Below, in pieces: positions 32,906 through 37,627 of a DNA stretch of 37,711 nucleotides. The position numbers and the translations under genes were made by a program. Source of the stretch: Betaproteobacteria bacterium RIFCSPLOWO2_02_FULL_66_14 (GTDB lineage Bacteria > Pseudomonadota > Gammaproteobacteria > Burkholderiales > SG8-39); the NCBI GenBank assembly GCA_001770475.1, contig MERB01000060.1:90363-128073 (forward strand). The letters are read 5' to 3'. Each line of letters opens with the position of its first letter. Position 1 is the stretch's first letter. The notes beneath the pieces were generated by a model. That model made no database searches and was not told where the DNA came from. It saw nothing but the letters and a program-made list of their open reading frames with translations.

Positions 32906-33390
32906 TTCCGCGCCATCCCGGAGTCGCATTCGCGTTCTCGCATCCGGCGCATTTCATCGCGCTCGGCTTCGGTGCGGGCGTGTCGCGGTTTGCGCCGGGC
33001 ACCGTCGGCACGCTGGTCGCGTTTCCGTTGTGGTGGCTCCTCGGCCCGGGCTATTCGCCGCTCGAGATGCTCCTCGTGCTGGTCCTGCTGTTCGGCATCG
33101 GCGTCTGGGCCTGCGAAATCACCGGCCGAAACCTCGGCGTTTCGGACCATGGCGCGATGTGCTGGGACGAGGTGGTCGCTTTTCTCGCGGTGCTTGCGGT
33201 GCTGCCCGACGAGCCGCTCTGGCAGGCGGCGGCGTTCTTCGTCTTCCGCGCCTTCGACGTCGTCAAGCCGCCGCCGATCCGCGAAGTGGAGCGCCGCGTC
33301 AAGGGAGGCATGGGCGTGATGCTCGACGACGTGCTCGCAGCCGGTTATACGCTGCTGGTGCTCGCCGTCGCGGAGCGCGTGTTTCTGTGA
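32902..33390 (+). CDS. pgpA: Phosphatidylglycerophosphatase A
   Basis: PgpA dephosphorylates phosphatidylglycerol phosphate to phosphatidylglycerol in the inner membrane. The 162-residue product has FIALGFGAGVSRFAPGTVGTLVA at the N-terminus, three to four hydrophobic segments, CWDEVVAFLAVLA with the metal-binding acid residues, FRAFDVVKPPPIREVERRVKGGMGVMLDDVLAAGY, all family signatures. The ATG overlaps the thiL stop, and the stop overlaps the pncC GTG. Confidence 0.96.
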   Translation: MIPRHPGVAFAFSHPAHFIALGFGAGVSRFAPGTVGTLVAFPLWWLLGPGYSPLEMLLVLVLLFGIGVWACEITGRNLGVSDHGAMCWDEVVAFLAVLAVLPDEPLWQAAAFFVFRAFDVVKPPPIREVERRVKGGMGVMLDDVLAAGYTLLVLAVAERVFL

Positions 33391-33872
33391 CCGATTCGCT
33401 GGCGCGCGAGGTCGGCCGGCGTTTGCTCGAGACGCGCACGCTGCTGGTCACTGCGGAATCCTGCACCGGCGGCTGGGTCGCGCAGGCCGTGACTTCGGTG
33501 TCCGGATCGTCCGCGTGGTTCGAGCGCGGCTTCGTCACCTATTCGAACGCATCGAAGGAGGAGATGCTCGGCGTTTCTGGCGCAACGCTCGAGCGGCACG
33601 GCGCAGTGAGCGAGGAAACGGCGCGCGAAATGGCGCTGGGCGCGATTGCGCGAAGCCGCGGCACCCTGGCGGTTGCCGTCACCGGCGTCGCAGGCCCCAC
33701 CGGCGGCACGGCCGCGAAACCGGTGGGTACGGTCTGCTTCGCGTGGACGGGTGCGGGGTTGACTCGATGCGAAACACGGTTCTACGCGGGCGACCGGAGC
33801 AGCATCCGGCGCCAATCCGTCGAGCGTGCATTGCAGGGGGTGATCGAACTGCTCCAAACGAGGTCGAAGTAA
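33387..33872 (+). CDS. pncC: Nicotinamide-nucleotide amidase (CinA C-terminal family)
   Basis: PncC deamidates nicotinamide mononucleotide to nicotinate mononucleotide, recycling NAD made available by DNA ligase. The 161-residue protein is the stand-alone CinA C-terminal domain: LLVTAESCTGGWVAQAVTSVSGSS with the catalytic serine, FVTYSNASKEEMLGV, HGAVSEETAREMA, and AVTGVAGPTGGTAAKPVGTV. It starts at the GTG overlapping the pgpA stop (GTGA). The next gene follows after 34 bases. Confidence 0.95.
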   Translation: MTDSLAREVGRRLLETRTLLVTAESCTGGWVAQAVTSVSGSSAWFERGFVTYSNASKEEMLGVSGATLERHGAVSEETAREMALGAIARSRGTLAVAVTGVAGPTGGTAAKPVGTVCFAWTGAGLTRCETRFYAGDRSSIRRQSVERALQGVIELLQTRSK

Positions 33873-33906: not shown

Positions 33907-35301
33907 ATGCTGGGAAAGGTGATCGTGAACCCAGCAATGACCAGCGTCCGTCCTGCTGCCGTGGCGGGCATGTTCTACCCGCGCGATCCGCGGCAACTCC
34001 TTGCCGAGGTCGGCGAACTGCTCGACGGCGTGGAGCGGTTCGCGCCGCGGCTCGACGTTCCCAAAATGATCGTCGTGCCGCATGCCGGCTATATCTATTC
34101 CGGAGCCGTTGCCGCGGCCGCGTACGACGCGCTCGCGCCCGGACGCGGCATCGTCCGGCGGGTCGTGATGCTGGGTCCCGTGCACCGCGTGCCGGTGCGC
34201 GGGCTGGCGCTGCCGGGGAGCGCCGCGTTCGACACCCCGCTCGGACGCGTGCCGGTCGATGCGGAGGCGATCGCTCGCCTCGCCGACCTGCCGCAAGTGG
34301 TGGCGAGCGCTGCCGCGCACGCGCAGGAACATTCGCTCGAAGTGCAGTTGCCTTTCCTGCAGCGCGTGCTGGGTGAGTTTTCGCTCGTGCCGTTCGCCGT
34401 AGGCGCGGCGCGCCCGGCGGAGGTCGCTGCGGTGATCGAGCGTCTATGGGGCGGCCGCGAGACGCTGTTCGTTCTGTCCACGGACCTGTCGCACTACCAT
34501 CCTTACGACGAGGCAAGAACCATCGATGCGGCCACCGTCGGGCGCATCGGCGCGCTCGCGAACGATCTCGACCATCAAGAGGCCTGCGGCGCGACGCCGC
34601 TCAACGGCGCGCTGCTCGCGGCGCGCAACCGTGGCCTTCGCATCGAGCTGCTCGCGGCGTGCAATTCGGGCGACAGCGCGGGCGGGAAGGATCGCGTCGT
34701 CGGCTATTCGTCGTTTGCGCTCTACGAACCGGACTCGGTTGCGCCGCAGGCGGCAGGGGCCGAACTGATCGAGATCGCGCGCGACGCGATCGCACGGCAA
34801 CTGGGTTTTCCGGCGCGGGCGCGAGCCGCCGCCGAACCGTCCTGGCTTCAGCAGAGCGCCGCCACCTTCGTCACCCTGACGAAGGACGGGAAACTCAGGG
34901 GCTGCATCGGCAGCCTCTCGGCGCATCGCCCGTTGCGTGAGGACGTCGCCGACAACGCGCGGCGTGCGGCGTTCCACGACCCGCGTTTCTCCGCTCTCGC
35001 ACGCGAGGAATGGCCGCGGTGCCGGGTCGAAGTTTCGCTGCTGTCGCCGCCCAAGCCCTTGCACTTCGCCGACGAAACCGACCTGCTCGCACAGCTCCGG
35101 CCCGGCGAAGACGGACTGATTCTCGAGTGCGAAGGCCGGCGCGGCACGTTCCTGCCGCAGGTCTGGGAAACGATTCCGGAACCGCCGCGGTTCCTCAACG
35201 AACTTCGCAGGAAAGCCGGGGTCTCGGCGGACGTGCCGTTCTCGCGCTGCCGCGTGTTGCGCTACCGAGTGCACAAATGGAAGCAGGCGACGCCCCGATG
35301 A
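33907..35301 (+). CDS. Memo-AMMECR1 fusion protein (AmmeMemoRadiSam system B + A)
   Basis: This 464-residue protein joins two normally separate families. Residues about 13-275 are Memo (system B): SVRPAAVAGMFYP, PHAGYIYSG (His59), GPVHRVP (His93), EHSLEVQLPFLQ (His142), STDLSHYH, and AACNSGDSAG (Cys252). The two histidines and the cysteine match the metal ligands of human MEMO1, so a metal site looks intact. Residues about 285-460 are AMMECR1 (system A), with KLRGCIGSLSAHRPLREDVADNA. Starts are ambiguous: ATG 33907, GTG 33925 (with GGGAAAGG just upstream) or ATG 33937, which best matches family N-termini. Its stop overlaps the amrS ATG. The chemistry of the trio is unknown. Confidence 0.92.
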   Translation: MLGKVIVNPAMTSVRPAAVAGMFYPRDPRQLLAEVGELLDGVERFAPRLDVPKMIVVPHAGYIYSGAVAAAAYDALAPGRGIVRRVVMLGPVHRVPVRGLALPGSAAFDTPLGRVPVDAEAIARLADLPQVVASAAAHAQEHSLEVQLPFLQRVLGEFSLVPFAVGAARPAEVAAVIERLWGGRETLFVLSTDLSHYHPYDEARTIDAATVGRIGALANDLDHQEACGATPLNGALLAARNRGLRIELLAACNSGDSAGGKDRVVGYSSFALYEPDSVAPQAAGAELIEIARDAIARQLGFPARARAAAEPSWLQQSAATFVTLTKDGKLRGCIGSLSAHRPLREDVADNARRAAFHDPRFSALAREEWPRCRVEVSLLSPPKPLHFADETDLLAQLRPGEDGLILECEGRRGTFLPQVWETIPEPPRFLNELRRKAGVSADVPFSRCRVLRYRVHKWKQATPR

Positions 35302-36392
35302 CTCCCGAGTCGAACTACCCGGGGCGCTGGTGGCACGCGTTGCCCGACGGCCGCATCCAGTGCGATCTCTGTCCGCGCGACTGCCGGCTGCACGAGGGAC
35401 AGCGCGGGCTGTGCTTCGTGCGCAAGATGGAGGCCGGCCGGATGGTGCTCACCACCTACGGGCGCTCCTCGGGTTTCTGCGTCGACCCGATCGAGAAGAA
35501 ACCGCTCAACCACTTCTATCCCGGCACGAGCGTGCTGTCGTTCGGCACGGCCGGCTGCAATCTCGCGTGCAAGTTCTGCCAGAACTGGGACATCTCGAAA
35601 TCCCGCGAAATGGACCGGCTGATGGATGCGGCCTCGCCGGAGGCGATCGCCGCCGCAGCGGTCCGCATGCGCTGCCAGTCGGTCGCCTACACCTACAACG
35701 ATCCAGTGATCTTCGCCGAGTACGCGATGGACGTCGCCGACGCCTGCCGCGAGCGTGGCATCAAGAACGTCGCGGTCACCGCCGGCTTCATCCACGCCGC
35801 GCCGCGCCGCGAGTTCTACGCGAAAATGGACGCGGCCAACGTCGACTTGAAGGCGTTCACCGACGCGTTCTATTTCAAGCTCTGCGGCGGCCACTTGCAG
35901 CCGGTGCTCGAGACGCTCGAGTACCTGGTCAGGGAAACCGCCGTCTGGACCGAAATCACCACGCTGCTGATTCCCGGAAAGAACGATTCCGACGCCGAGA
36001 TCGAAGCCGAATGCGCCTGGATTGCGCGGCACCTGGGGCGCGACGTGCCGCTGCACTTCTCCGCCTTCCATCCGGACTGGAAGATGCGCGACGTTGCTGC
36101 GACGCCCGCCGCGACGCTCGCGCGCGCCCGCGAAATCGCGCTGCGCGCGGGTCTGCGGTACGTCTACACCGGCAACGTTCACGACGTGAAGGGCGGTTCG
36201 ACCTACTGCCCCGGATGCGGCAAGGCGCTGATCGTGCGCGACTGGTACGACATCCGCGCCTATCACCTGAACGATTCCGGGCACTGCGACGGATGCGGCG
36301 TGCAGCTCGCTGGGCGCTACCAGAAATTCGGCAAGCCCTTCGGCCAGCGGCGCATCCCCGTACGTCTGAGCGACGCGCGGACGACGGCGTGA
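35298..36392 (+). CDS. amrS: AmmeMemoRadiSam system radical SAM enzyme
   Basis: AmrS is a radical SAM enzyme related to pyruvate formate-lyase activases. The 364-residue product carries the [4Fe-4S] motif CNLACKFC (Cys87, 91, 94). A cysteine-rich N-terminus (CDLCPRDCRLHEGQRGLC, four cysteines by residue 39) and a C-terminal zinc-ribbon-like pair (CPGCG and CDGCG) may bind further metal. The SAM-barrel signatures AYTYNDPVIFAEYA, VAVTAGFIHAAP and NVDLKAFTDAFYFKLCGGHLQPVLE are clear. It overlaps the Memo-AMMECR1 stop (ATGA) and the MFS start (GTGA). Its substrate is unknown in any organism as far as I know. Confidence 0.93.
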   Translation: MTPESNYPGRWWHALPDGRIQCDLCPRDCRLHEGQRGLCFVRKMEAGRMVLTTYGRSSGFCVDPIEKKPLNHFYPGTSVLSFGTAGCNLACKFCQNWDISKSREMDRLMDAASPEAIAAAAVRMRCQSVAYTYNDPVIFAEYAMDVADACRERGIKNVAVTAGFIHAAPRREFYAKMDAANVDLKAFTDAFYFKLCGGHLQPVLETLEYLVRETAVWTEITTLLIPGKNDSDAEIEAECAWIARHLGRDVPLHFSAFHPDWKMRDVAATPAATLARAREIALRAGLRYVYTGNVHDVKGGSTYCPGCGKALIVRDWYDIRAYHLNDSGHCDGCGVQLAGRYQKFGKPFGQRRIPVRLSDARTTA

Positions 36393-37627
36393 GCTGGACG
36401 CCCGGGTCGGGCGCCTGGCTCGGGGCCATCTGCACCAGCCGCGCGCTCGCGGCGAGCTGGTTCGTCGCCTACTCCGCGGTGCTGCCTCTCACGCAGCTCG
36501 CCTGGGGGCTGTCGGGGCGCGAAGCGGGTCTGATCCAGTCGGGGTTTCATCTCGGCTATCTGTGCTCGCTCTTCATCGTCGGTTTTCTCACCGACCACTT
36601 CGGGGCCAAGCGCGCGTGGCTTGCGACCGGCGTCTTCGCCTGGGCGAGTCCGTTCATCTTCGTCTACTTCGCCGACGGATTCTGGTCCGCGTTCTGGCTG
36701 CACGCGCTGACTGGGCTGTGCCAGGGCGGCTCGTACACGCCGGTGCTCGCCTTGATCAACGATCACGTGGTGCGCGAACGGCGCGCGCGCGCCATGGGCT
36801 TTCTCATCGCCGCCTCGAGCGCCGGGTATGCCGTCTGTCTGGGCGTGGCGGGGCTGGCGCTCAAAGTCGCCGATTGGCGCGGGGCGCTGACCGCAGTGGC
36901 ATTAATGCCGCTCCTGTCGTGGTTCCTGGGGCTGGCGGCGATGCGCGGCACGGCGAACCGCGTGCATCCGCGACCCGCGGGCGAATCGATGCTTGCCGCG
37001 ATTCCCGCGGTGCTGCGGAACCGCAACGGCATGCTCTCGGTATGGGCGTATACGTTTCACAACTGGGAACTGCTCGGGCTGTGGGCCTGGCTGCCCGCAT
37101 TTCTCACCGCCGCCGTGATGGCTTCTGGTGCGGCCGCGGGCGAAGCCGCGGCGCTCGCGCTGTCGCTTTCCGCGCTCACCTACGTCGCCAACATCGGCGG
37201 CTCGATCGTCGGCGGCACGATGGCCGATCGCTGGGGGCGAACGCAGGCGATCCTGCTGTGGTCGTGCGTGAGCCTCGTCCTGTCGTTTTCGATCGGCTGG
37301 CTGATCGCGCTGCCGATCGGCGTTCTCGTCGTGCTGGCGTGCCTGTACAACTTTGCCGGCATCGCCGATTCGGCGACGCACTCTACGGTGCTCGCGGAGA
37401 GCGTGCCGCCGCATTACCTCGGGGTTGCTTATGCAGTGCGCTCGGTCATCGGTTTCGGTGCCGGCGTCGTCAGCCCCGTGGCCTTCGGCTGGGCGCTCGA
37501 TCTCTTTGGCGGCGGCAGGAGCACCGCCGATCCATTCGCCTGGGGCATCGCCTGGGCGACGCTCGGACTGGGCGGGCTGCTCGGGCCGATGGCAACTTGG
37601 AAGCTGCGGCGCGCGCTGCGGCGCTAG
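36389..37627 (+). CDS. MFS transporter, coupled to the AmmeMemoRadiSam genes
   Basis: This 412-residue protein has about 12 membrane segments in two halves. MFS motif A occurs after helix 2 (GFLTDHFGAKRAW) and again in the second half (GGTMADRWGRTQ). Other marks are GLCQGGSYTPVLALINDHV and ERRARAMGFLIAASSAGYA. The GTG start overlaps the amrS stop (GTGA), so translation is probably coupled. The substrate cannot be told from sequence; the overall style resembles MFS permeases of anions or organic acids. It may import a substrate or export a product of the Memo/AMMECR1/AmrS pathway, which is inference from position alone. Confidence 0.9.
   Translation: MSWTPGSGAWLGAICTSRALAASWFVAYSAVLPLTQLAWGLSGREAGLIQSGFHLGYLCSLFIVGFLTDHFGAKRAWLATGVFAWASPFIFVYFADGFWSAFWLHALTGLCQGGSYTPVLALINDHVVRERRARAMGFLIAASSAGYAVCLGVAGLALKVADWRGALTAVALMPLLSWFLGLAAMRGTANRVHPRPAGESMLAAIPAVLRNRNGMLSVWAYTFHNWELLGLWAWLPAFLTAAVMASGAAAGEAAALALSLSALTYVANIGGSIVGGTMADRWGRTQAILLWSCVSLVLSFSIGWLIALPIGVLVVLACLYNFAGIADSATHSTVLAESVPPHYLGVAYAVRSVIGFGAGVVSPVAFGWALDLFGGGRSTADPFAWGIAWATLGLGGLLGPMATWKLRRALRR

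Follow-up and report, generated by a model that had tools for sequence, protein, structure and literature searches.

A Memo-AMMECR1 fusion gene overlapping the radical SAM gene amrS in a betaproteobacterial AmmeMemoRadiSam locus

A fused Memo-AMMECR1 gene overlaps amrS

The window analysed here is a 37,711-nucleotide stretch of a contig from Betaproteobacteria bacterium RIFCSPLOWO2_02_FULL_66_14, which towards its end encodes a two-domain protein and a radical SAM enzyme in overlapping genes (Table 1). A first-pass annotation of the DNA had proposed that a complete Memo domain and a complete AMMECR1 domain are joined in one open reading frame, and this was confirmed with both Pfam and NCBIfam profiles, each of which is matched over nearly its full length. 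The NCBIfam models exceed their cut-offs, where TIGR04336 (AmmeMemoRadiSam protein B) covers residues 15-271 (251.5 bits, cut-off 26, profile positions 1-269 of 270) and TIGR04335 (protein A) covers residues 286-458 (186.3 bits, cut-off 99, profile positions 2-175 of 175). Translation could equally well begin at an ATG at 33937 (Met11) instead of 33907, as similarity to proteins from other genera sets in at approximately residue 10-14. The presence of the LRGCIGSL motif was also upheld: the alignment shows R331, G332, C333 and G335 kept in 58 of 59 homologues, the remaining row being a gap, and the two hallmarks of the AMMECR1 family, LRGCIG at residues 330-335 and an entire domain, are both present. 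The claim that the fusion stop overlaps the AmrS start likewise held, with 4 nt shared as ATGA, an arrangement shared by 23 of the 49 loci in which the fusion stop could be compared.

Table 1. Features of the Memo-AMMECR1/amrS locus, numbered from the first nucleotide of the window
Feature	Position	Strand	Basis or remark
CinA/PncC-domain amidase gene, upstream	33384..33872	+	Conserved neighbour within family only
Memo-AMMECR1 fusion gene (AmmeMemoRadiSam proteins B+A)	33907..35301	+	464 aa, single open frame, no internal stops
Memo domain, residues 17-269	33955..34713	+	Pfam PF01875, profile 2-267/269, E 1.4e-44
His59, predicted metal ligand (= MEMO1 His49)	34081..34083	+	59/59 homologues; alignment to MEMO1
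His93, predicted metal ligand (= MEMO1 His81)	34183..34185	+	59/59 homologues; alignment to MEMO1
Cys227, predicted third metal ligand (= MEMO1 Cys244)	34585..34587	+	59/59 homologues; alignment to MEMO1
Cys252, non-conserved	34660..34662	+	Metal ligand in the first-pass annotation; Arg in 36/59
Interdomain linker, residues 270-288	34714..34770	+	Model: helix 280-298 continues into AMMECR1
AMMECR1 domain, residues 289-457	34771..35277	+	Pfam PF01871, profile 2-167/168, E 6.5e-45
LRGCIGSL motif, residues 330-337	34894..34917	+	Sequence
ATGA overlap, fusion stop TGA (35299-35301) and amrS ATG (35298-35300)	35298..35301	+	Sequence
amrS, AmmeMemoRadiSam radical SAM enzyme	35298..36392	+	364 aa; TIGR04337, 640.2 bits, cut-off 220
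Radical SAM 4Fe-4S motif CNLACKFC (CxxxCxxC), residues 87-94	35556..35579	+	Canonical
MFS transporter gene, GTG start overlaps amrS stop (GTGA)	36389..37627	+	Pfam MFS_1

Since TIGR04336, TIGR04335 and TIGR04337 all score above their cut-offs and the three parts lie in one locus (33907-36392), this is almost certainly a standard AmmeMemoRadiSam locus in which proteins B and A form one polypeptide. The locus is thus already known and is not a new system, and the fusion is a common bacterial variant. The description of the locus as an uncharacterised biological system stands only for its chemistry: NCBIfam already names it AmmeMemoRadiSam, a published study speaks of 'Memo-Ammecr1 systems' (PMC7159879) and the gene names amrS, amrB and amrA are in use in the literature (PMC9062700). 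The reference AmmeMemoRadiSam arrangement shares the adjacent, overlapping genes and all three families with this locus, and differs in that B and A are fused here.

The fusion recurs across phyla

The source assembly is fragmented (62 contigs, 86.6% complete) and adjacent split forms of the two genes are common, which could point to two genes joined artificially during sequencing or assembly. There is next to no chance that this accounts for the fusion: in the 37 genomes sampled from the organism's own family, 29 had a match and 28 of these 29 show the identical read-through in independently sequenced genomes. A sequencing error at the linker, the event that the first-pass annotation had named as fatal to its proposal, is thereby excluded, and the Memo-AMMECR1 fusion is genuine. 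Within this family, the locus of G004 is cut at a contig end and that of G028 is truly split, while fused and split forms are both present in other families of the order.

Fusions are present in Pseudomonadota, Actinomycetota, Myxococcota, Thermodesulfobacteriota and Ignavibacteriota, and the named isolates that carry one include Pseudomonas sp. R-28-1W-6, Quisquiliibacterium transsilvanicum and Bifidobacterium felsineum. A set of 138 loci from several phyla comprised 101 fused and 37 split forms, counts that are rough because the search profile was built from fusions, which biases the sample towards them, and because some split forms in metagenome assemblies are possible frameshift errors. 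Mapped onto a FastTree tree of the Memo domain, these states changed at least 13 times. One myxococcal locus (L124:7833-9932) encodes Memo followed directly by AmrS, and an AMMECR1 domain was detected neither between the two nor behind them.

The Memo domain has a predicted MEMO1-type metal site

The first-pass annotation had assigned the metal site to His59, His93 and Cys252. Ligands were mapped by profile alignment to iron-bound human MEMO1 (7kq8/3bcz), in which iron is held by H49, H81 and C244 (PMC11081632). Both histidines were upheld, whereas Cys252 was ruled out as a ligand: this position is R in 36, C in 21, N in one and Q in one of the 59 homologues, and MEMO1 C244 (chain position 241, offset 3) aligns instead with the invariant Cys227, inside an 'ACGATP' motif. 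Asp193 and His196 are invariant too; their MEMO1 counterparts, D189 and H192, lie close to the metal. The predicted Memo site is therefore His59/His93/Cys227, a His/His/Cys site of the MEMO1 type, and for experimenters the corrected ligand, Cys227 and not Cys252, is the residue to mutate.

AlphaFold2 modelling of the fusion from a 23-sequence alignment gave a mean pLDDT of 91.7 and a pTM of 0.88, which indicates a confident relative placement of the two domains, so that Memo and AMMECR1 are modelled as one confident unit. A Foldseek search with this model matched MEMO1 (3bcz/7kq8) with TMt values of 0.78-0.80 (0.79 for 3bcz), while the AMMECR1 part matched the folds of the archaeal AMMECR1 proteins 1wsc, 1zq7 and 1vaj. 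Remoter matches were TK2203 and DesB (3wr8, E 1.4e-5). Human MEMO1 and yeast Mho1 (PF01875) resemble the Memo domain in fold and, by alignment, in the H/H/C iron site, but MEMO1 is only ∼26% identical to it and is a separate protein with neither an AMMECR1 domain nor AmrS. Similarly, human AMMECR1 and AMMECR1L and the archaeal proteins ST0229, MM0484 and PH0010 (PF01871) are alike in the whole domain, the LRGCIG motif and the fold (E 7e-11 to 6e-18 for the archaeal chains), but stand alone where the domain here is fused.

AmrS features invariant cysteines outside its radical SAM motif

Eleven AmrS cysteines (22, 25, 29, 39, 87, 91, 94, 304, 307, 330 and 333) are invariant across 85 homologues. 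Eight of these (22, 25, 29, 39, 304, 307, 330 and 333) lie outside the CxxxCxxC motif, which suggests that AmrS has at least one additional metal site. The radical SAM core is common to AmrS and pyruvate formate-lyase (PFL) activating enzyme (COG1180-type; E 1.4e-7 to 3c8f), but AmrS is longer and has four N-terminal and four C-terminal invariant cysteines. AmrS scores 52.1 bits against the NCBIfam PFLA model, far under its cut-off of 231.75, and thus does not classify as a PFL-activating enzyme. The AmrS model itself (pLDDT 58.5) fell below usable quality.

The neighbourhood offers no conserved fourth partner

ORF clustering (ORFs of at least 90 aa) across 80 named loci revealed no conserved fourth partner, as the only clusters present in most loci are Memo, AMMECR1 and AmrS. 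Once antisense shadows are set aside, these are followed by a hydrolase-like ORF (14 loci), ispD (10), an ABC ATPase (9), sua5 (7), cinA (6) and ispF (6), which are mostly lineage-bound. The isoprenoid pathway genes ispD and ispF lie divergently beside split Memo, AMMECR1 and AmrS genes in up to 10 of the 80 loci (L106, L119 and other betaproteobacterial loci, for example), which is possibly mere lineage synteny. Upstream of the fusion are rimM, trmD, rplS, ribBA, ribH, nusB, thiL, pgpA and the pncC/cinA-type gene, and the order thiL-pgpA-cinA-fusion-amrS is kept only among close relatives. The same applies to the MFS gene, which adjoins amrS in 12 loci and could encode a transporter for the substrate or product. 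PADLOC found no match to a defence model at the locus and an anti-phage role was rejected on this basis.

AmrS co-occurs with Memo-AMMECR1 proteins

A survey of 399 genomes of the phylum identified 96 with both a Memo-AMMECR1 match and AmrS, 10 with the fusion match only, five with AmrS only and 288 with neither. AmrS thus occurs in 101 genomes in total, namely in 96 of the 106 that have a Memo-AMMECR1 match and in five of the 293 without one (Fisher P ∼1e-73, a value inflated by genome relatedness). This association does not depend on gene order. For a large set of fused genes, no AmrS lies less than 1.5 kb away, yet approximately nine-tenths of the genomes with such a gene carry AmrS elsewhere, while in some loci AmrS is encoded divergently upstream and linkage recurs in both orientations across phyla. 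The link between Memo-AMMECR1 and AmrS thus outlasts rearrangement.

There are exceptions in complete genomes. G395 encodes a longer, diverged fusion (L188:3820-5523) with the H/H/C and LRGC(M)G motifs intact but has no AmrS, which resembles the eukaryotic state, whereas G437 and G258 encode full-length AmrS with neither Memo nor AMMECR1. In these two genomes AmrS is found near genes for a response regulator, uvrC and a CDP-alcohol phosphatidyltransferase (G437, L189), and for a beta-lactamase-fold protein and a flavin monooxygenase (G258, L190). The complete three-family set is found in four of 14 control genomes. Among these controls, Memo is the only one of the three in Thermus composti, and AMMECR1 the only one in Haloferax volcanii. 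Genomes with a single partner indicate that the partnership is strong but not obligate.

A proposed joint reaction and its alternatives

The first-pass annotation had also suggested that the fusion forms a functional unit with its radical SAM partner, and this is supported by the co-occurrence across the phylum, the gene overlap, the recurrent fusion and the confident single-unit model. From these data we infer that Memo works as a single unit with AMMECR1, in most cases together with AmrS, and joint action of all three is probable. The fusion further suggests a 1:1 stoichiometry of Memo and AMMECR1. The explanation that we favour overall, with modest assurance, is that the AmmeMemoRadiSam locus carries out a radical-initiated modification with the fusion serving as a single metal-site unit. 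The fusion and AmrS would be co-translated, and the Memo-AMMECR1 polypeptide and AmrS would together constitute one enzyme unit. AmrS would cleave S-adenosylmethionine at its CxxxCxxC cluster to initiate radical modification of a substrate, AMMECR1, with its LRGCIG loop, would position this substrate beside the His59/His93/Cys227 iron site of Memo, and that site would finish or protect the product with no need for O2. The first-pass annotation had likewise suggested that what AmrS makes is completed at the Memo metal site, with AMMECR1 as a binding module. This order of chemical steps is speculative and may well need revision, and an obligate relay is partly contradicted by G395, which keeps both motifs without AmrS, and by G437 and G258, where AmrS occurs alone. 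An equally tentative first guess at the substrate is a nucleic-acid base or a nucleotide-derived small molecule; the archaeal AMMECR1 gene is linked to a gene for a PIN/Zn-ribbon protein (PMC6393860), a weak hint that points to RNA.

AmrS could instead act on the Memo-AMMECR1 protein itself, as PFL-activating enzyme does on its target, and equip the LRGCIG loop with, for example, a glycyl radical or a modified Cys or Gly. The nearest AmrS relatives with known function are indeed glycyl-radical activases and the loop offers a conserved Gly and Cys, but we consider this rather unlikely, given that the G395 protein keeps the motif and metal site without AmrS, that H. volcanii has AMMECR1 without AmrS and that AmrS is not known from eukaryotes. 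Human AMMECR1 also features LRGCIG (PMC5502304), which again speaks against this reading. Comparable doubt attaches to a role for Memo-AMMECR1 in iron or redox homeostasis, with AmrS loosely associated through a common anaerobic, iron-rich lifestyle. In favour of such a role, MEMO1 is an iron-binding protein that influences iron homeostasis (PMC11081632), AMMECR1 is an indicator of anaerobes (PMC13386939) and some genomes have Memo or AMMECR1 alone, although the gene overlap, the co-occurrence of unlinked genes and the repeated linkage in both orientations across phyla exceed what a common lifestyle would produce.

Peptides or proteins would be the substrates if the system were RiPP-like, and here radical SAM domains related to AmrS occur in peptide-processing conflict systems (PMC7159879) and Memo-like proteins fused to RiPP recognition elements have been predicted (PMC12710340). 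We regard this as improbable, since the operon has no space for a precursor gene, as the gap upstream of the fusion measures 35-65 nt and the downstream genes overlap, and no recurrent small neighbour was seen among the clustered ORFs of at least 90 aa. Less probable still, and indeed very unlikely, is an extradiol-type, O2-dependent dioxygenase activity of Memo towards a ring that AmrS has made accessible. The LigB-type fold relationship and the Foldseek matches to DesB and TK2203 speak for such an activity, but the likeness to LigB/DesB dioxygenases is remote (12% identity) and the alignment places Cys227 at the third position of their His/His/Glu site, in place of the Glu ligand. In addition, MEMO1 has no detectable dioxygenase activity on standard substrates (PMC11081632), and AMMECR1 is a leading anaerobe marker, found in 50.66% of anaerobes and 3.38% of aerobes (PMC13386939), a strongly anaerobic distribution that argues against a requirement for O2. 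The source genome itself carries heme-copper oxidase genes, so a strictly anaerobic lifestyle is improbable for this organism.

There is no agreed molecular function for the human proteins MEMO1 and AMMECR1, and recurrent fusions that are co-translated with a radical SAM enzyme offer a tractable entry to them. It is conceivable, though unlikely, that in humans and bacteria alike MEMO1 and AMMECR1 each supply half of a single ancient enzyme, which in anaerobes finishes a radical-SAM-initiated modification at the His/His/Cys iron site. If so, the biochemical role of these disease-linked human proteins would first become accessible through the bacterial fusion; one family with disease carried an AMMECR1 G177D substitution, inside LRGCIG (PMC5502304).

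A shorter AmrS-like paralogue

A second class of AmrS-like proteins in at least 10 genomes, each with an apparent in-frame TGA, was considered as a candidate selenoprotein AmrS. This was rejected, as translation showed that the TGA is the ordinary C-terminal stop (..GVWT*) of a shorter paralogue. This paralogue (365-397 bits, ending ..GVWT*) is found at loci L175-L184 and L193, in genomes G161, G090, G101, G113, G129, G097, G094, G137, G184, G231 and G243. Several of these genomes also have the standard set and seem to encode two parallel systems. In G161 and G090, the shorter paralogue lies beside a second fusion, in which 'ITACAFGP' replaces 'EACGATP'.
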